This document shows positions 1 through 28,534 of a DNA stretch of 34,218 bases, piece by piece; the first letter of the stretch is position 1, and every line of letters begins with the position of its first letter. A program made the position numbers and the translations under genes. The notes below the pieces were generated by a model. It searched no databases. It was not told where the DNA came from and worked only from the letters and a program-made list of their open reading frames with translations. Origin of the DNA: an uncultured Bacilli bacterium (GTDB lineage Bacteria; Bacillota_I; Bacilli_A; RF39; UBA660); contig CANPZX010000008.1 of the NCBI GenBank assembly GCA_947589195.1, forward strand, positions 1 to 34,218, read 5' to 3'.

Positions 1-1150
1 CTAACTCTAGGGCTAATCAGCGTTCTGGGGGGGGGGTATTTTAGTCTATAGGACATATGCTTTGTACCAGGAAGAAAAAGAGTATAATGTCATAAAAGGA
101 ATAATTCCCGATTTTGGCTATGATGTGAAACTAGCTATTAAAGTAGATAAAGAAGAAGTTCAGAGTGTTCCCGAAAGGGGAAATGGTTTATATAAAACCA
201 ATGTAGTATGTAATAATAAAGTAATAGGTAAGTGGGATTATAATGCCTGGAATTTAAAAATTGAAAATCCGAAGAAAGATACAAGATGTACGATAGAATT
301 TACAACTGATGGAATAACTAAAGAACAATACGATGAATATATATCAGAGGGAGTAAGTTTAAGAAGAAATACTTATCGAGGAAAAGATATAACTTCTTAT
401 TATGAAGATGAAAGTTTATATGAGATGATTAGTAGTTGTAGATTTGATGATATTTATGTTGGCGATTATATAAAATCTAGCAACAATACAGAAAATAAAG
501 AAATAACTTGGTTAATCGCGGATTTAAATAATTATTTACATTCGGGATATACTGACTTAAATACATGTCATGCGACAATAATTCCAGCAGAACCTTTAAA
601 AGATGATAAGATGAATGATAGTGCTACTACTGGTGTAGTAAATTCCAATTTAAAACTTAAACAATTGGGTTCTGATACAGAAAGAACTAGCATAGGAGCA
701 TATATGGGAAGTAAAATGAAACAAGAAACATTGCCAAGTATATTTGATACATACATAAAACCAGTCTTTGGTGATAATGTAATAGAATATACCAATTTAT
801 TGGCTGACCAAATGGAAAGTAGTCGTTCGAATCAATTTGGAACAATAAGTGGAGCATCGTCTGGCTGGGCTTGGTATGATAGTCAAGTAGACTTAATGAG
901 TGAAGTCAATGTCTATGGTTCGACTATTTGGTCAAGTAGTGGCTACGACATAGGCATCGATAATAGGCAATATGCTATTTTTAAACTAAAACCGGAATTT
1001 ATCAATAGTTATGGGGATAAAAGATTTAATTATTGGTTAAAGGCGGTCGCCCGCTCTGCGAACTTTGCTACGGTCAGCAACGATGGCGTTGCCAGCACGT
1101 ACGGCGCCTCCAGCTCGCGTGGTGTCCGTCCCCGCTTCCTAATCAAATAA
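1..1150 (+). CDS. Surface-anchored variable protein, 5'-truncated, frame broken at a poly-G tract
   Basis: The gene runs in from the left edge. Bases 1-36 read, in frame 1, as a hydrophobic segment (LTLGLISVLGGG). From base 35 on, frame 2 continues as ILVYRTYALYQEEKEY and then a long extracellular-type protein to 1150. The two halves are separated by ten G (27-36). Nine G would join them into one signal anchor plus ectodomain, while ten G lead to a TAG at 49-51. The TTG at 62 opens the longest uninterrupted frame but has no ribosome site. The middle has a beta-rich repeat-like segment (residues about 20-100). The C-terminus (YWLKAVARSANF to GVRPRFLIK) resembles the C-type-lectin-like domains of the DUF6273 kind found on phage tails and Firmicute surfaces. 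That tail is GC-rich and full of NNC codons, unlike the rest. The family assignment is by eye, and the true start lies outside the window. Confidence 0.7.
27..36 (+). repeat. Poly-G tract (10 G), likely slippage site
   Basis: This is the only long G run I noticed in a very AT-rich window. It lies inside the hydrophobic N-terminal segment of the surface protein. Removing one G restores a continuous reading frame from the window edge to 1150. A homopolymer indel error in the assembly would look the same. Confidence 0.75.
1042..1147 (+). other. Candidate DGR variable region at the 3' end of the surface protein
   Basis: The last ~35 codons switch abruptly to high GC and to C-ending codons (GCC, CGC, AGC, AAC, GGC, TAC, TCC). 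These are the codons produced when AAC/AAT-rich template codons are mutated at adenines. The end, GGTGTCCGTCCCCGCTTC, encodes GVRPRF and is GC-rich like an initiation-of-mutagenic-homing site. No reverse transcriptase or template repeat is in the window, so the call rests on base composition, codon pattern and position at the C-terminus of a lectin-like domain. Confidence 0.55.
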
Positions 1151-17704: not shown

Positions 17705-17731
17705 TAAAAAGATTAGTTGTTTTAACTAATC
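17705..17731 (-). terminator. Terminator after the Panacea-associated toxin gene
   Basis: The inverted repeat GATTAGTT/AACTAATC (17711-17718 and 17724-17731) is followed on the minus strand by a T run. It overlaps the stop codon. Confidence 0.75.
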
Positions 17732-18153
17732 TCATTTAATTCCAATATTTCATATTTTGTCATATGCACAATTCTTTCTTCTTGAATTCTATTATTACTT
17801 TGATATTCTTTATAATCATTTAACAATTCAGTTAATTTTGTTTTTGATAATAGATCCTTGGTTTTTCTATATTTTTTCAAATCAGCAAAATTTTCTATTG
17901 TTAATTTTGTATTTAATTGGGCATAACTATCTTCATATATTACTGTTTCTTGAGGCTCTTTTGAATTAATGTAATGGTTGTATGGATAATATAAGTTTTG
18001 TAATTTACCAGCAGTTTTGTCAATTGCTATAATTTCAATATATTCATCATTAATTTCAGCAATTAACATAGGGTGTTTAATATCAGATACTTTGTCTATT
18101 TGATATCTAACTTTTAGCCAAAGTATTTGACCAACTTTTAAATTTTCAATCAT
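17722..18153 (-). CDS. Toxin partner of a Panacea antitoxin (PemK/MazF-like SH3 barrel)
   Basis: The 143-residue protein starts GQILWLKVRYQIDKVSDIKHPMLIAEIND. This is the beta-barrel opening typical of PemK/MazF-like RNases (strand, basic loop, H-P, strand). IEIIAIDKTAG and the later DSYAQLNTKLTIENF follow, and the C-terminus is helical. Its ATG overlaps the antitoxin stop by 4 nt (18150-18153), the classic toxin-antitoxin arrangement with the antitoxin gene first. The proposed action is RNA cleavage or another translation block. PanA antitoxins pair with many unrelated toxins, so only the partnership is firm. Confidence 0.6.
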   Translation of the reverse strand: MIENLKVGQILWLKVRYQIDKVSDIKHPMLIAEINDEYIEIIAIDKTAGKLQNLYYPYNHYINSKEPQETVIYEDSYAQLNTKLTIENFADLKKYRKTKDLLSKTKLTELLNDYKEYQSNNRIQEERIVHMTKYEILELNEIS

Positions 18154-18632
18154 ATTTTTAATGCGGCAATTAATCCTTTATATCTTTTCTTATATTCAGC
18201 TATATTTTTTTCCAAATTCATTACCGGAGCATTATATGTATCCTTACTTAAAATTTGCCATTCTGGATCCTCATGAGTTATTTCTATTAATTCTTCGAAT
18301 GTTGCATTTTCTAAAGATAAATATATTTTATCCAAAAAATTTTTTTCTACTTCATTAATGTTTTTATTATCATAATGCCCTACCAATCTACCATATGAAT
18401 TCATTATTGATTCAACAACAGGACCATTATCATAGGCTACAAAATCATCAGAAAATAATTTTTTATTATATTTAGCTAAATGAACAACTTGAGCTAAAAA
18501 TAAATATTTATTTATTCTGGCATTACCTTCATAGAATTTTCTACCATTATATGAAACTACATTATGATTAAAAAGTTTTCTTTCATGATCTTTGGAAAGA
18601 AAATATTCAGCAACTTGTTTTGCAGTTAACAT
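18150..18632 (-). CDS. Panacea-domain (DUF4065, SocA/PanA) antitoxin
   Basis: This 160-residue protein has the Panacea signature: LTAKQVAEYFLSK, NKYLFLAQVVHLAKYNKKLFSDDFVAYDNGPVVESI (residues ~41-76) and an acidic central helix. The C-terminal ITHEDPEWQIL motif (~115-125) is typical of SocA/GepA-like proteins. The domain neutralises diverse toxins by direct binding. AGGAGA lies upstream of the ATG. It is the first gene of a two-gene unit divergent from the SAP-domain gene. Confidence 0.85.
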   Translation of the reverse strand: MLTAKQVAEYFLSKDHERKLFNHNVVSYNGRKFYEGNARINKYLFLAQVVHLAKYNKKLFSDDFVAYDNGPVVESIMNSYGRLVGHYDNKNINEVEKNFLDKIYLSLENATFEELIEITHEDPEWQILSKDTYNAPVMNLEKNIAEYKKRYKGLIAALKI

Positions 18633-20586: not shown

Positions 20587-21831
20587 TTACGCTTTTAATT
20601 TAATAAAATTTAAAATATTTTCTTGATTATTTTCTTGATAACCGGCTTTCTTAGTTTGACAAATTATATTTTTTATTTCTGTTAATTCGGGAGTTTTGAT
20701 ATTATTTAAAATATTTAAGCGTTTTTGACTAATATTACTATTTGCTGAAGTTGCCTTATAATCAGCAAGACTATAGCAAAATAAATTTAGTTGCTCTGGA
20801 TATTTTTCTTTGAATTTACTAGCAATAAGTAATCCTTCGGGATCAAAGTCGCCATTGTAATATAAAGTATTACCTGATTCAAGAAGTTTTTCTAATAGTA
20901 GATAGACACTAGAATTAGAAAAACCATTGGCAATAACAATTGTAGCTTTAATGTTGTCATTAATAATTTTAGTTAAAATTGAAGGATTTTCTAAAATAAA
21001 GACTTTTTTATTGAAACTATCAAATTTTTCAGTAGTTAAAATATTTTGAATATTTAAAATTAAACTTTCTTTGTTTTTGGCAAAATCATTAATATATGAT
21101 TTATTGGATATAAGGTTATAAGTAAGAACAAAATTAGAGTAATTGTCAATTACAATATTATTTTCTTTAAGTAAGTTTATTTTTTCTTCTCGGGTAGTAG
21201 GAAATTCTTTATTTTTTAAGTTGGCTAAATAGTAAAGAAAAAGAATACATTCTTTATTATCAATATCTAAATAATGGGGATTAGCAGTATATGTGGAGGA
21301 GAAAATTGGTAATAAAGTTGATTCGCTCGGTAAATTATCAATTAATAATATTAAATTTTTTAATTCTTTTTGAAGATCATTTTTATTTTTTAAATATCTT
21401 TTATGAATGATATTATAAGGACTTTTTCGGGATTCTATTGTTTTTTTTAACCAGTCTGTTCCTAAAGAGTTTTTATTTGTTAAAATAGATTTATAGTAAT
21501 TTTGTTCAACAAGTTGTTTTTGATAGTTAATTTCTTTATTAGTAATTAAGTTAGTATTTAAGTATTCACTGATAAAAATTGTTATGTCAAAATCAGTAAA
21601 TTTGGAATTTTGCATAATGGTTAAAAATTTTTTTAAAGAAATAGTAAGGTCATCATGAATATTTATTTTATGTCCTAAAAATTTAGACAAAGTTTCAGAT
21701 TCTTCGATAGTTAAGTCAGAAAGTTTGATTGTACCAGAAAAGGTTCCTAAAGATTGGTATTTTTGATAAATAGCAAGAATTAAACGATTAAATCCTGGTT
21801 TTTCTAAAAAATATTTAGTATAATCATGCAT
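20587..21831 (-). CDS. jetD: Wadjet nuclease subunit JetD
   Basis: The 414-residue protein has an N-terminal helical arm and a C-terminal TOPRIM-like nuclease domain. VFILENPSIL (about residues 276-285) supplies the glutamate. TLYYNGDFDPEGLLIA (about 315-330) supplies the aspartates. JetD relates to topoisomerase VI A/Spo11 and cuts closed circular DNA once the Wadjet SMC complex has fully extruded it. All predicted metal ligands are present. Its ATG overlaps the jetC stop by 8 nt. It is the last gene of the operon and ends at a bidirectional terminator. Confidence 0.9.
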   Translation of the reverse strand: MHDYTKYFLEKPGFNRLILAIYQKYQSLGTFSGTIKLSDLTIEESETLSKFLGHKINIHDDLTISLKKFLTIMQNSKFTDFDITIFISEYLNTNLITNKEINYQKQLVEQNYYKSILTNKNSLGTDWLKKTIESRKSPYNIIHKRYLKNKNDLQKELKNLILLIDNLPSESTLLPIFSSTYTANPHYLDIDNKECILFLYYLANLKNKEFPTTREEKINLLKENNIVIDNYSNFVLTYNLISNKSYINDFAKNKESLILNIQNILTTEKFDSFNKKVFILENPSILTKIINDNIKATIVIANGFSNSSVYLLLEKLLESGNTLYYNGDFDPEGLLIASKFKEKYPEQLNLFCYSLADYKATSANSNISQKRLNILNNIKTPELTEIKNIICQTKKAGYQENNQENILNFIKLKA

Positions 21832-24800
21832 TTTCTATTTCCTCATTATATTCTTTACGATTATTAATTATTTCTTTTATTTTACCATTCCACCGATATC
21901 TTTCGACTGATACGGTTTGTGAATTTTGAGGTCTAATTAATTCACAAATTGATAAATCACTAATAGTATCGTAATCACCCCATAGAACTTGAGAGTTAAT
22001 TACGAAATCTAAATTTAAATTATTTAGAATTCCAAACATTTCGCGAATATTATCCTCATCAACACCGGCAAAAGCTTCATCTAAAGCAATTAATCTTAAA
22101 GCATTATTTCGAGCCATATTAAGTTTAGCATAGACACTAGCAAAAAGGGGAATATACATACTCTTGGCTCTTTCACCACCACTGAATCTAGCAAAGGTTT
22201 TATCAGTAAGTTCTTTAAAATCTTCACCTTTACGTTCATATAATAATTGAAAACTAAACCAAGTACGATAATCAAGAATTTCTTCCATAATTTTAGCAAA
22301 TGGGGTATAAGAATCTTCATATAGTTCTTCCGCTTTTTTAATTTTACTCCGGAAATGATTAGTTAATTTTTCTTTATCTTCGTCTTTTAACATATCAGGT
22401 GATATTTTTAAAATTCTTACTAGTTCTTTAGTATCAATTTCGCCTTCGTTATCGGCAGAAATACTTTTCCAAATTAGTTTAAAACGTAGGGCACTATTTT
22501 CTTGCATTGTAGCCATTATTTTATTGATTTTTTCAATCCATTCTCGAGATGAATTAATGCGATTTCTAATTTTTTCACCAACAGTATTAAGTAAAATTTC
22601 TTCAAATAAACGACGATCTTGAGTACTGATTAAATCTTTATTTTCAGCGATATCAGCTTCTAATTTATGAAATAACTCAATAATATTTAATTTTATACCT
22701 TGATACATAGCACTTACATCATTGCGAATATTTTCGGCATAGAGGTTCTTTAATTCTTCATTTGTTGTTTCGTAATCATTAAAGATATAGAAAGATTTTA
22801 AAGAATATTCATTTAATTCTAAAGAGTATTTATTAAAGCTAGAGATAAAATTTTCCTTGGCTATATTTAAGTTATATTCCTTTTGTTCTTTGTTATCATT
22901 AAGTATTTTTTTAATTGTCGAAGCAATATCTATTACTTCATCTTGATAAACATATCCTAATTTATATTCTCGAAGAAAGATTTCATAGTAAACATCTAGT
23001 TTTTGTTGTTTAATAGTTTTTTCTTCATTAAGATTTTTGATTTCAGTTTCTTTATATGATATATCATGAGATAAACCTGAAGTTTCTTTTATTAATTTTT
23101 CTTTTTCTTGATTTAAATTAGTTAGATTTTGTTCAAGTTTAAGAAGTTGTTCTTTTTGATTTTGATACTCAGAGGTTTCTAATAAAGCATTTATGTTTTT
23201 TTCATTAGCTAGATTAATATTTAATTCTTTAGTCCTTTCATTTTTATCAGCTTCTAAATAAGCAATATTATTAATAATGTCAGCTAAGGTATTTTGATAA
23301 TTTATTAAAAATTCATTTTTATGCCAATAAGTATTTTCGTTTAATTTTAAATTATCGAGTTTTTCTTTTAAGGAAGCAAGTAGTGAGAAAACTTCTTGAT
23401 AAGCATTTAAATTAAGAGGAATTTCTAAACCTTGTTTGCCTTTTAGAATATGATCTTTTATTTCTTTTAATTTATTATTAGCTAAAGTAAGTTTGGCTTC
23501 AATTTCTTTTTGATGTTGATCATTCCAATTTATATTTTGCGAGATATCGGCAATGGTATTTAAAATATCATTTATTAATTTATTATTGGGAAAATTGTTA
23601 ATTTCAGAGTTAATTATTTCTGCTTTATGCTTATTGTTTTCAATAATGTTTTCTAAAGTAGATATTTCCTGTTTTAAAATTGTGATTTTTTCGTTTAATT
23701 TATTAAGTTCATTTTTCTTAAGTTCTAAACGTTTTAAAAAGCCAATAAATGTTTGTTTATAATTCTTATCAGCAATAGAGTTTAAAATACCTATTTTAGC
23801 TAAACCATTTTTATTGATGACGATTTCATCAGTATCATCAATACTTATAGATTCTAATATTTCTTTAATATAATTAGGATCTAATGTAGAGTTTTCTGGT
23901 AGTTTGATATCAAAATATGCAGTTAAATTATTTTTCTTTTTAGTTCCTTTAGTTAAATAAATAATTTCAGTATTTAAATTAGATATTTTAGGAATGTCAT
24001 TTTCTTTGATTATTTTAGCATTTAAGATATTTAGATCAAGTAAGGATGATTCAAGATTATTTTTGATATTTTCCGGAATGTTTGCTTTAAATTCAAGACA
24101 TTTATATAAAGGAAGGCTTTCAATATGATTAAGTTTTAAAAGTTCCTCAGAATTGTTATTTAATAGGGGAAGTTCAAAATCTTCTTTGTTTTCTAATTCT
24201 TGATATTCATTTTCGATAATTTTTAAATCTTCTTTTTTCGTATTAAGTTTAGTTTCTTGCTTTAAAATATCACTAATTAAGTTATTTTTAAGTTCCCAAG
24301 CATAATTTGTATATAATTCTTTTGCTAGATCATAATTTTCTTTAGAATAAAAATTTATTAATTCGAAAATTTTTTGCTTAATATCATCACTTATTTTTAA
24401 TTCAGCATTATTATTAATTTTGTTAATAAAATCTTCTTCCCAACTCATGATACTTTCTCTTAGATTTTGTTCAGTATTTTTTAAATTATTTTCTAATTCT
24501 TTATAAGAATTGATTAGTTTTTCTAGTTCAATATGGGAATTTTCGTTTTCTAAAAGAATCTTTTGTTCTTCTTCTAAGAGATTTTTAATTTTTGATACTT
24601 TATCTTTATAGAGTTTTAAAGAATCATTGATAGTTTCATAAAGATTAGGATTATTATCTTTTAAAATATTATCTAAAAAGATATTAAGTTCTTTAAAATA
24701 AGTATCGTTAGCTATTTCTTTTAAGTCAGTAATGTTTTCGGTAATTTCCTTTTTAATTTTATATATTTCATTTTCCGTTTCAGTTATGTTATTATTGGTC

Positions 24801-25903
24801 CTTATTTTAGTTTGTTCATTATTATCTATTTTAGTTTCTAGTTCAGCTAATTTAATTTTTAAAGTATTAATATTTTCTTTAATGGTATTTAATGATTCAA
24901 CTTTTTGTTTTAAATCACTATTGTCAAATTGTTTTTTGGTTTCTTCATTAATAGCAATTTCTTCTATTACTTTTTGATGACGATTTTCTTTTTGGGTATA
25001 CTCGTCTTTAAAGTTTTGAAGTTCTTGATTAGAAATATTGATTTTATTTATGTGAGCATTAAATTCATCACTTGCTTTTTTATAGTTTCTAGCTTTAGTT
25101 AAGAGATTTAGAGTGTTATAGTTATTATAAACTTTTAAAAAATCTTTTAAACATTTATGATTTTTTTCTAATTTTTCAATTTGTTCTTTAGTTTTGTTCA
25201 TTTGTTCAATAGCTTCGGATAAGGGACGTAAGTCATCTTCCGTAAGGGGTTGTAATACTTTGTTTAAAACATCAATTAAATTTGTTGGTTTATAATCTCT
25301 AGATAGTTTATTACTTCGTAGCTGTAAAAGTAGTTTTATAAACTCATCATAGGTATCTAAGTTAGGAAAGCCAAATAATAAATCATTTACCATCGCTTTG
25401 TAGTCTTTAGTATTATCCGTAAAATTATTGACAGGACCTAATCTTGATTTTAATTCATTTTTTGATAAAGGAATTTTATTAACTGGATCTTTATATAAAT
25501 AAAAATCTTTATTTATTCGTTTGCCATCTTTTAAGGCAAAACCCCATGATTCAACCGGTTTTCCTTTACGTCCACGAAAGCCTAGACCAATTGTTATATA
25601 TTTCTTTTCATTTTCTAAATAAGTTTCCATATAAAGATAAGATGTAGCTTCTTCTTTTTGTATATTTTCGGCATCTCCTAATATGTAATCTTCGATTTTT
25701 CTTTCTTTGGAACCAAAAGGATCTAAACGATCTGGACTTTTATTGCCATCTAAAATTAAGGGAATAAATGATTGCATGGTGACGGATTTACCACTGCCAT
25801 TCGCTCCTCGTAATATTAGTTTTCCACCATAAAAATCATATTCTTCTTCATCATATAACCAGAAATTCAATAATCCGATTTTATTTACTCTAAATCTATT
25901 CAT
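21824..25903 (-). CDS. jetC: Wadjet SMC-like ATPase JetC
   Basis: ATG 25903 (1359 residues) is preceded by GGAGGT at 8 nt spacing. A TTG at 25918 and an ATG at 25909 overlap that site. Walker A is GANGSGKS (33-40). Two very long coiled coils occupy about residues 240-1150, with a hinge-like globular part near 620-740. The ABC signature RFSGGERAKSM lies near 1238 and Walker B LIALDEAFAGVDED near 1274. It is the MukB-like motor that extrudes small circular DNA and recognises plasmids by topology. It overlaps jetB by 8 nt and jetD by 8 nt. Confidence 0.93.
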   Translation of the reverse strand: MNRFRVNKIGLLNFWLYDEEEYDFYGGKLILRGANGSGKSVTMQSFIPLILDGNKSPDRLDPFGSKERKIEDYILGDAENIQKEEATSYLYMETYLENEKKYITIGLGFRGRKGKPVESWGFALKDGKRINKDFYLYKDPVNKIPLSKNELKSRLGPVNNFTDNTKDYKAMVNDLLFGFPNLDTYDEFIKLLLQLRSNKLSRDYKPTNLIDVLNKVLQPLTEDDLRPLSEAIEQMNKTKEQIEKLEKNHKCLKDFLKVYNNYNTLNLLTKARNYKKASDEFNAHINKINISNQELQNFKDEYTQKENRHQKVIEEIAINEETKKQFDNSDLKQKVESLNTIKENINTLKIKLAELETKIDNNEQTKIRTNNNITETENEIYKIKKEITENITDLKEIANDTYFKELNIFLDNILKDNNPNLYETINDSLKLYKDKVSKIKNLLEEEQKILLENENSHIELEKLINSYKELENNLKNTEQNLRESIMSWEEDFINKINNNAELKISDDIKQKIFELINFYSKENYDLAKELYTNYAWELKNNLISDILKQETKLNTKKEDLKIIENEYQELENKEDFELPLLNNNSEELLKLNHIESLPLYKCLEFKANIPENIKNNLESSLLDLNILNAKIIKENDIPKISNLNTEIIYLTKGTKKKNNLTAYFDIKLPENSTLDPNYIKEILESISIDDTDEIVINKNGLAKIGILNSIADKNYKQTFIGFLKRLELKKNELNKLNEKITILKQEISTLENIIENNKHKAEIINSEINNFPNNKLINDILNTIADISQNINWNDQHQKEIEAKLTLANNKLKEIKDHILKGKQGLEIPLNLNAYQEVFSLLASLKEKLDNLKLNENTYWHKNEFLINYQNTLADIINNIAYLEADKNERTKELNINLANEKNINALLETSEYQNQKEQLLKLEQNLTNLNQEKEKLIKETSGLSHDISYKETEIKNLNEEKTIKQQKLDVYYEIFLREYKLGYVYQDEVIDIASTIKKILNDNKEQKEYNLNIAKENFISSFNKYSLELNEYSLKSFYIFNDYETTNEELKNLYAENIRNDVSAMYQGIKLNIIELFHKLEADIAENKDLISTQDRRLFEEILLNTVGEKIRNRINSSREWIEKINKIMATMQENSALRFKLIWKSISADNEGEIDTKELVRILKISPDMLKDEDKEKLTNHFRSKIKKAEELYEDSYTPFAKIMEEILDYRTWFSFQLLYERKGEDFKELTDKTFARFSGGERAKSMYIPLFASVYAKLNMARNNALRLIALDEAFAGVDEDNIREMFGILNNLNLDFVINSQVLWGDYDTISDLSICELIRPQNSQTVSVERYRWNGKIKEIINNRKEYNEEIENA

Positions 25904-27071
25904 TTTCATTACCTCCAAATAGTTCTAATTGTTTTTCATCATTTTCTGGAATGTATCCAGTTATTTTTCCAACCATCGGAAAAATTTCATAGCCTAATTC
26001 ATTTTCTCTTATGAAGTCATATTCACTCATATAGTTAATAACTGTAGTCGTAAAAACATCTAAGGTCATTTCTTTTAAATTTTTACTAAAATATTTTTCA
26101 TTTTTTTCTTTTGTTTCTTTGATTAAACGATTTAATTTTTCTTTGGTTAATAAAGCAACTTCATTTTGATTTAATTTTATTTCGTCGTTATTTATTTTTT
26201 CTAATAGTTCAGTATTTAAAAGTAAAACAATATCTGTTATAGCTTTATTATTAGGGAAATCAAATTTTTCTTTGGTATTATCAGCGTATAGTAATAAAGC
26301 CATGTTTTTGGTTATTTCTAATTCAGCATCAAGATATTTATCTAGTTCATTTTTTATTGAACTACGAAATTTTTTTAGATAGTCTAATTCAAATTCGGTT
26401 AAATCTTGAGAATAGGCCACCAAGGAATAAATAAGGTGACGGTATACCCGATATCTTCTTACATCACCAATATTTTCATTTTGATCATTAAATTCATCAT
26501 TAATAAAATCATTTATTGTATTAAATTCACTAAGATCATTTTTAAATTCTCGAACATAATAGTTAGATAAACCAGTTGTTTCGTATAATCCTTCAGCTTT
26601 TTTGTCTTCGGTAAAAGTGCTTATTTCTTCAACTACTTTTATTAACCCTTGTTCTTTTAGATGATTTAAGACATTTACTAGGCATTTACGATGTTTGGTA
26701 ATGTTCCAATCAGGAATAGTGTTTAATTCTAAAGTAATTGCAGTATTTCTTATATATTCAATTAAATTTGAAAGAATGAATTGTTCTAAACGGGGTTTAT
26801 CTTCTAAAAATAGTAAAACAATCATTAGTATGGAATATTCTAAGGGAGTAGTAAATTCGGTAATTCCCATGTAGCTTTTAGGAACACTAGGGACTTTTTC
26901 CAGTTTTATAATTCGATCATTTACGATAAGTTTGCTTCCTAATTTAGTATGAATAAAATCTTTATAATAATCAAGATTATTTTTGATAGTGTAATAAAGA
27001 GATGGATTATCTTCTTTTATACACCAATAGTTATTAAGTAAATATTCTAATTCTTCAGTATGAATATCCAT
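25896..27071 (-). CDS. jetB: Wadjet KITE subunit JetB (DUF4194)
   Basis: The 391-residue protein has winged-helix content: LEYSILMIVLLFLEDKPR (~77-95), VLNHLKEQGLIKVVEE (~133-148), then RVYRHLIYSLVAYSQ (~206-220). Its C-terminal MSEYDFIRENELGYEIFPMVGKITGYIPE is typical of the MukE-like JetB family. It binds the kleisin JetA and the SMC. Its ATG overlaps the jetA stop by one base, which shows tight coupling. Length fits the family. Confidence 0.9.
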   Translation of the reverse strand: MDIHTEELEYLLNNYWCIKEDNPSLYYTIKNNLDYYKDFIHTKLGSKLIVNDRIIKLEKVPSVPKSYMGITEFTTPLEYSILMIVLLFLEDKPRLEQFILSNLIEYIRNTAITLELNTIPDWNITKHRKCLVNVLNHLKEQGLIKVVEEISTFTEDKKAEGLYETTGLSNYYVREFKNDLSEFNTINDFINDEFNDQNENIGDVRRYRVYRHLIYSLVAYSQDLTEFELDYLKKFRSSIKNELDKYLDAELEITKNMALLLYADNTKEKFDFPNNKAITDIVLLLNTELLEKINNDEIKLNQNEVALLTKEKLNRLIKETKEKNEKYFSKNLKEMTLDVFTTTVINYMSEYDFIRENELGYEIFPMVGKITGYIPENDEKQLELFGGNENE

Positions 27072-28534
27072 TAAATATCACCTTCAAATTTTATTTCGAC
27101 ACTATCCATGATAAATGTCCCATCTTCACTAGTTATAGTGCATTTTCCCGGCTTTTTTAAAATTGAGTACGATAAACCAAATTCCGTTTCTTTTTTGGCA
27201 CTTGAGGAAGAAAGAAGTTTAGTTATATAGCGTCTTTCGATTTTGCTTAAATTTACAGTATCAGTTAAAATTATTTTTTTATCTTTAATTAGCTTTTTTA
27301 AAAGTTCTTTGTTTTCGGCTTGAATTTTTCGATATTCTTCAAGAAGTCTTTTTTTCTCAGCTGATTTATCAGTGATAGGAACAATTTTTACTTTTTCTTT
27401 GCGTTCCCGAGTTCTTGATGATAAAACAATTTCAAGAGGAGGAATGTCATAAGAGTTTACTAATACATCAGTATTTAAATTGGAATTACCAACAAAATGT
27501 TTAACATTTGAAATTCCAAAGATAACGGAAGCATATTTGTGGGCTTCTTCAATATCAGTTATGTTATCAAATATTTTGCATAATTTTTTATAGTCTTCTC
27601 TTCGGCTGGTCATATTACCATGTAATTCGATTAAAGAGTTAGCGTATTTAGTTATGAGAACAATTATATTATCGGTAGTATCCATTAGTTTTTGCCCTTC
27701 GCTGATTTTACTTTCACTACCAGTAAACCATTTAAAAATGTTTAAGATTTTGCCATGGTTAATTTCTTTTAGATGAGAAAAGTCAAAATTTTGATTTAGC
27801 ATTGGATTTAGTTGGGTGTAATTGTTTATTTTAGTTAGAAAATTTTCAATTTTTTCGGGTGTTATTTTGGAAATACTATATTTTATTAAATGGATATTAG
27901 ATTGATATCCTTGAACAAATTCTTTTAAGTATTTAACAATTTCGGATTTAAATTGGAGAAATAATACACTTTGCATAAGTTCTTCAGATTTGGGTTCGTT
28001 AAATTTTTTTAAGAAGTCTTGATAGTTTTGATTTAACTTGGTAAAGTCGTCATTTAGATCATTCCATATTTCGTAAGCTTCTTCGATAGTTTTTTCTTCA
28101 ATATCGATAAGTTTAGTAATAGTTTGACGTAAGCGATCAAATAATTTAGGTTCTAGGGAAGCCGCTTTTACTTCCATATCTTCTAAAGAAATAGTTAACC
28201 TTTCTATTTCAGTTGCGTATTCGGTCATTTGATAACGAAATTTCTTGTTTTTAAATTCGTCGATTGAGGTAGCATTTTTCGTATCTTGCATGCGAGATAA
28301 ACTTAACCATTCAGTTAATTGTTCTAAATCACGTTCACAGTCGTCAATGGTGTAGTCATTAAATAAAGCATTTTCTTTAAGTTCATTATAGACGTCTTCT
28401 TTGTATAACCAATATTCTAATTTTTCATAATTGCGATAAAAAATACGCATGATTGGCCGATAACGCCATGAGTTTTCAGTACTTAAATATTTAGTTTCAT
28501 CAATTTGTTTAATTAATTTTTCATATACTTCCAT
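27071..28534 (-). CDS. jetA: Wadjet kleisin subunit JetA
   Basis: This is a 487-residue MukF-like protein and the first gene of the operon. The N-terminal winged-helix segment is YRPIMRIFYRNYEKLEYWLYKEDVY (~25-49). A helical middle (~80-330) includes the dimerisation region, and the C-terminal part is a lysine-rich helix followed by a small beta domain. The family is annotated as DUF5716/JetA. It bridges the two JetC heads and the JetB dimer. AAAGGGA precedes ATG 28534. The regulatory region of 268 nt upstream carries direct repeats and a composite operator. Confidence 0.9.
   Translation of the reverse strand: MEVYEKLIKQIDETKYLSTENSWRYRPIMRIFYRNYEKLEYWLYKEDVYNELKENALFNDYTIDDCERDLEQLTEWLSLSRMQDTKNATSIDEFKNKKFRYQMTEYATEIERLTISLEDMEVKAASLEPKLFDRLRQTITKLIDIEEKTIEEAYEIWNDLNDDFTKLNQNYQDFLKKFNEPKSEELMQSVLFLQFKSEIVKYLKEFVQGYQSNIHLIKYSISKITPEKIENFLTKINNYTQLNPMLNQNFDFSHLKEINHGKILNIFKWFTGSESKISEGQKLMDTTDNIIVLITKYANSLIELHGNMTSRREDYKKLCKIFDNITDIEEAHKYASVIFGISNVKHFVGNSNLNTDVLVNSYDIPPLEIVLSSRTRERKEKVKIVPITDKSAEKKRLLEEYRKIQAENKELLKKLIKDKKIILTDTVNLSKIERRYITKLLSSSSAKKETEFGLSYSILKKPGKCTITSEDGTFIMDSVEIKFEGDI

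Follow-up and report, generated by a model that had tools for sequence, protein, structure and literature searches.

Putative retroelement-driven variation in a poly-G-bearing family of lectin-like genes of an uncultured Bacilli bacterium

At the very start of a contig from an uncultured Bacilli bacterium, an open reading frame with a poly-G tract near its beginning ends in a GC-rich tail. A preliminary description of this locus, made from the sequence alone, proposed that the tail is the hypervariable C-terminus of a target of a diversity-generating retroelement (DGR) and that, together with the poly-G tract, one protein would combine on/off switching with targeted hypermutation. This raises the question of whether the tail has indeed been rewritten by a retroelement, and by which route. 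The window (the whole stretch of DNA analysed, 34,218 nucleotides) comprises bases 1-34218 of contig C8 of genome G000, a 1.35-Mb draft in 90 contigs that is 88.6% complete. Our data make it very likely that the tail is the variable region (VR) of a cellular DGR, rewritten from a template and belonging to a poly-G-switched gene family. Both the rewriting (mutation) of the VR and the switching are inferred from sequence and were not observed directly. The features of the gene are collected in Table 1.

Table 1. Features of the target gene, in window positions.
Feature	Position	Strand	Basis
DGR target gene (variable protein)	17..1150	+	Open reading frame, 377 codons to contig edge
Poly-G tract, G10	27..36	+	Upstream frame (LTLGLISVLGGGYFSL*) stops at 49-51
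C-terminal C-type-lectin-like domain, predicted to display the variable residues	338..1147	+	AlphaFold2 pLDDT 95.6 with 64 homologues
VR block homogenised to the template repeat	~1040..1123	+	Codon profile over 18 intact copies; low third-position diversity, sharp edges at ends of TR homology
Hypervariable codons NNC/NNT, from AAC/AAT in the template	1052..1120	+	17/28 adenine sites changed versus G008 TR
GVRPRF, invariant end	1121-1138	+	Tail comparison
GGTGTCCGTCCCC, invariant GC-rich 3' end common to TR and VR	1121..1133	+	Window versus G008 TR

Composition and variation of the tail

The description of the tail as GC-rich and dominated by NNC codons held. Positions 1043-1138 have a GC content of 67.7%, versus 31.8% for the rest of the open reading frame, and form the sole 96-bp stretch at such GC in the 34-kb window; NNC codons predominate, with a third-position C in 19/32 codons here versus 31/342 elsewhere (p = 8.5e-11). 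The VR proper occupies positions 1043-1133. The gene is cut by the contig edge, beyond which its start codon lies, and stops at 1150. The segment GGTGTCCGTCCCC is identical in the template repeat (TR) of the congener G008, with the two sequences diverging directly after it; judged by position, it takes the place of an initiation-of-mutagenic-homing site.

A phage origin of the window locus was rejected, since the locus adjoins two ribosomal-protein genes at 1303-2163, which we take to be rplM- and rpsI-like from their translations. Further along the window, the reverse strand carries a complete JetABCD (Wadjet type II) anti-plasmid defence operon (20587-28534), and at 17722-18632 (reverse strand) a SocA/Panacea-domain antitoxin gene adjoining a 143-aa gene without Pfam match, which together are likely to be a toxin-antitoxin pair.

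The TR of G008, being the template of a congener, was used as independent reference for the window tail. The window VR differs from it at 17 of 28 template adenines versus 6 of 62 other sites (p = 9e-7). Over 30 standard-length copies (the first set, decayed copies included), 540/840 adenine cells versus 310/1860 other cells differ from the same template, and the window tail departs at only 2 of 62 non-adenine sites from a leave-one-out consensus built on the remaining 35 copies. The columns of the tail alternate between invariant positions and codons in which positions 1 and 2 vary freely next to a fixed third C or T. Substitutions in the VR are concentrated at template adenines, and the copies in G000 share a common template signature.

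Codon positions show the same structure. In 19 less drifted full-length core copies, third-position divergence is 0.37 upstream versus 0.12 in the VR, and divergence at positions 1 and 2 is 0.15 upstream versus 0.64 in the AAY codons of the VR; in intact copies, third positions are thus three times more conserved inside the VR than outside it, and AAY positions 1 and 2 are four times more variable. The third-position contrast is partly selected, because the core copies were picked after decayed ones had been dropped. Over 35 copies of G000, third positions diverge by 0.42 upstream versus 0.35 in the VR, and positions 1 and 2 by 0.21 upstream versus 0.43 across all VR codons. According to the codon profile, the edges of the homogenised block are sharp and coincide with the ends of TR-VR homology in copies with different flanks. 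About 20 tails of G000 carry only 0-5 non-adenine changes; 16 of the 36 are drifted.

The claim that the tail is a DGR hypervariable region is thus supported, both by adenine-specific variation against the AAC-rich template of congeners and by the pattern in 36 paralogues of G000.

The gene family, its lectin-like domain and its poly-G tracts

The preliminary description treated one gene, whereas G000 has about 40 such genes. The window tail as query gives 34 matches in this genome, and 36 tails can be aligned without length change, so that there are at least as many copies; 40 open reading frames carrying the tail motif were recovered, and a protein profile returns 53 family matches, fragments included. 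The window protein is 54-78% identical to 27 full-length paralogues in G000, and a related protein with 59% identity is found in an uncultured Tenericutes bacterium. The family proteins have in common a membrane-anchor start, an LGGG encoded by the poly-G tract and an N-terminal module, and their C-terminal domain closes with GVRPRFLI.

Modelling of the whole protein gave a low-quality C-terminal half and no informative Foldseek match, and a model of the domain was used instead. The AlphaFold2 model of the C-terminal 270 residues (pLDDT 95.6) has as its top VIA-align match a T. ramosa IgA peptidase domain (9qa6, Z 12.7), followed by a Bacteroides fimbrial protein (4eps, Z 8.0) and the C-terminal domain of Legionella Lcl (8q4e, Z 7.3); the rows after these three are almost all C-type lectin-like domains (Z 3.5-5.2). 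The hypervariable domain is accordingly predicted, on the basis of this model, to have a C-type-lectin fold that carries the VR. This is the known fold of DGR targets (see also PMC7517822; PMC10907252). Surface display and a binding function of the domain are inferred only. The domain also occurs in phage tail fibres, including that of a prophage DGR of the family member G024, and domestication of a phage DGR is therefore plausible. The G024 locus (L093, contig C2) is an apparent prophage in which a 590-aa tail-fibre-like target, with the C-terminal domain as in the window family, adjoins Avd, a template, a reverse transcriptase (RT) and a probable endolysin gene.

A tract of nine G in the window gene would join the two frames (LGGGILVYRTYALYQ); as assembled, the window copy is OFF. 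In G000, 28 of 32 tracts are G10, and in all 23 of these G10 copies with enough upstream sequence the upstream frame hits a stop and the gene is OFF; two copies with G9 (L018, L037) are in frame. All tracts of G011 are G10, and G008 has two G10 (OFF) and two G9 (ON) tracts, while its cassette-linked target has no tract and is in frame. In the congener G001 (L170-L180), the poly-G tract follows a short leader and precedes the membrane-anchor codons rather than lying inside them. Tract length sets the reading frame, and differences in length are seen between paralogues, none yet within one locus. The lengths were taken from metagenome assembly. The frame state of the copies is shown, and slippage is inferred. 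The proposed combination of a poly-G tract and a DGR tail on one protein held, and it extends across the whole family; on/off switching itself was not observed directly.

Cassettes, proposed mechanism and alternative explanations

The preliminary description predicted an AAC-rich template, nearly identical to the tail, in the neighbourhood of a reverse transcriptase. Such a template is present in cassettes of congeners, and was not found in the window's own assembly. An intact Avd gene is found in 4/22 genomes of the genus. The gene order is target gene, Avd, second template-like copy, template and RT in G008; target gene, Avd, template and RT in G011; and Avd, template and RT in G021; in G010, Avd and RT adjoin a target gene. 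Among PHROGs families, the Avd protein matches 'Avd protein of DGR' (E 5e-8); the congener RT matches a phage RT family. The closest solved relative of the RT is 8ub7 (E 5.6e-15 and 2.2e-21), which we take to be the BPP-1 RT, and the congener RTs carry an IGxxxSQ motif (SIGIGSQISQ) as well as YMDD. Three species share a conserved spacer of ~150 bases that separates the template from the RT. The tail linked to the cassette of G011 is changed at 14/23 adenines and 1/58 non-adenine sites. The second template-like copy of G008 is non-coding and lies upstream of the template (L091, contig C19, 5332-5424, reverse strand); it differs from the G008 template at 16/28 adenines and 2/65 other sites (p = 9e-9), a mutagenesis signature without protein selection. 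This copy also hints that rewriting may extend to copies of the template. Genome G001 was considered as a possible DGR-free control: no RT or Avd was found in it and its tails are more drifted, and this draft is also incomplete.

In the 88.6% complete, 90-contig draft of G000, no RT (searched with the RT family and the G008 protein), no template repeat and no TR-RT spacer were found, and the exact template pattern was not found in viral contigs. Avd is present in fragments only, behind target genes or at contig ends; contig C22 terminates inside Avd. Two loci (L113 on contig C60, L111 on C78) contain a broken Avd that runs into the end of a target gene (RPRFLIN stop) in place of its own 3' part; we regard both as remnants of duplicated cassettes. 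The preliminary description would have been refuted by the lack of an RT or template repeat in a complete genome; neither was found in G000, but the assembly is incomplete. As only broken Avd, no RT and no template were found, the DGR machinery of this species is inferred, and so are its cassette and current activity. A working cassette is either located in the missing 11% of the genome, or the element was recently lost.

In the mechanism that we propose, an AAC-rich template RNA would be copied by the RT (with Avd), with misincorporation at adenines, and the cDNA would take the place of the final ~80 bp of the target, thereby changing about a dozen surface residues of the C-type-lectin-like domain. 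One template would recently have rewritten at least 20 dispersed paralogues in G000, mostly in trans, ~16 more copies being older and decaying. Each gene also has a poly-G tract, located either within its membrane-anchor codons or behind them, with G10 as the out-of-frame (OFF) and G9 as the in-frame (ON) state. Most copies, the window's included, are OFF as assembled; therefore variants could arise in silent genes and be shown on tract slippage. A bolder reading is that dozens of silent (G10) surface-lectin genes are under continual rewriting in trans by one and the same retroelement, and that slippage to G9 exposes a few of them at a time. Chance would then govern both the sequence and the expression of the repertoire, and variants would arise ahead of their exposure to selection. 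We offer this reading tentatively, as in our judgement the odds are somewhat against it.

The alternative that survives best, and remains possible, is that G10 is not OFF in the cell, owing to assembly error or to transcriptional slippage that restores the frame, and that there is no true phase variation. In its favour, nearly every tract is of one length, G10, and homopolymers can be misjudged by metagenome assemblies. However, G9 and G10 both occur, and frame state matches length, in several species.

It appears unlikely that the DGR was lost in this species, with the tails as recent relics of rewriting that has ended. The failure to find RT, TR and spacer, the broken or cut-off state of every Avd piece and the drifted tails (16/36) speak for such a loss. 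On the other hand, 11% of the genome is absent and these repeats are where contigs often end, as C22 does inside Avd. Moreover, ~20 tails have 0-5 non-adenine changes although ~37% of third positions differ in the remainder of the gene, which argues that rewriting was recent; its continuation is not proven.

Likewise unlikely is a two-step archive, in which the DGR rewrites the cassette-linked target only and gene conversion then copies its tail to dispersed paralogues, the silent copies being stored snapshots. That a tail can be copied is indicated by two diverged genes of G000 (L012, contig C71; L013, contig C16) with tails identical at all 28 adenine sites, an identity confined to the VR block; this may reflect transfer from one paralogue to the other, use of a single cDNA at both genes, or an error of assembly. 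The archive is also supported by a GC hairpin of the type ACCCC-TTTAT-GGGGT (imperfect in some), which follows cassette-linked targets in several species and Avd-linked copies of G000 (L091, L092, L188, L100; L010, L014, L017, L018); no such hairpin follows the window VR, and dispersed copies are mostly without it. A hairpin/cruciform downstream of the VR is required in phage BPP-1 (PMC3240598), and its lack after the window VR also weighs against the reading that we favour. A general requirement is not established, and we do not treat the hairpin as defining for all DGRs; as a mark of actively rewritten copies it was dropped, as intact tails occur without it. Against the archive, L012/L013 is the only close pair among 36 copies, and the block edges fall where TR homology stops, even in copies whose flanks differ. 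Direct rewriting is favoured by these edges and by the independence of the other tails.

Diversifying selection of the ordinary kind, or shuffling among the paralogues, with no retroelement involved, is all but excluded: a multigene family of exposed lectins would be a plausible target, but the variation tracks template adenines even in the non-coding copy of G008, and VR third positions are more conserved than elsewhere, by copying from one template and not by protein-level selection.

Comparison with known systems

The DGR of Bordetella phage BPP-1 (Mtd, Avd, bRT) is alike in its VR at the 3' end of a gene for a C-type-lectin-fold protein, its Avd, TR and RT (known here from the congener cassettes), its adenine-specific changes and its GC-rich common 3' end; the congener RT is related in sequence to 8ub7. 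It differs in having one phage tail target and a required GRNA-loop hairpin (PMC3240598), whereas G000 has dozens of chromosomal targets, most without hairpin and each with poly-G. Nine DGR loci with 15 targets are described for Thiohalocapsa PB-PSB1 (PMC10907252), and DGRs with remote variable proteins for cyanobacteria (PMC7517822). These systems share dispersed lectin-fold targets, some far from any RT, and evidence of trans action; they differ in fewer targets per genome, other taxa and other domain partners, and poly-G switching is not reported for them in the bearing sections of these two papers.

The C-terminal domain of the window family is also found in the G024 prophage DGR, Lactobacillus phage JCL1032 and Acutalibacter phage Fontainebleau, and in G024 and Fontainebleau the domain gene adjoins a DGR-type RT. 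There it belongs to a tail fibre, whereas the window family has it in many copies, joined to a membrane anchor and an N-terminal module. Phase-variable surface genes of Campylobacter and Neisseria with poly-G/poly-C tracts resemble this family in the homopolymer within the coding sequence and the G9/G10 frame shift; to our knowledge, these genes are not themselves rewritten by a retroelement.

DGRs as such are known. No description was found of a case in which a single DGR appears to act on dozens of dispersed targets that are also frame-switched. The statement of the preliminary description that the combination was not known likewise met no contrary report, as DGRs combined with phase variation or homopolymer switching were not found in the open-licence literature searched, mostly by title and abstract. 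If our reading is true, some 40 genes in a genome of 1.35 Mb belong to a rewritten and switched lectin family, a number which exceeds the 15 targets reported for Thiohalocapsa. It would then provide a natural case for DGR trans action on many targets and for a link between diversification and stochastic expression, and would suggest a route from a phage receptor-binding DGR to a cell-surface repertoire.
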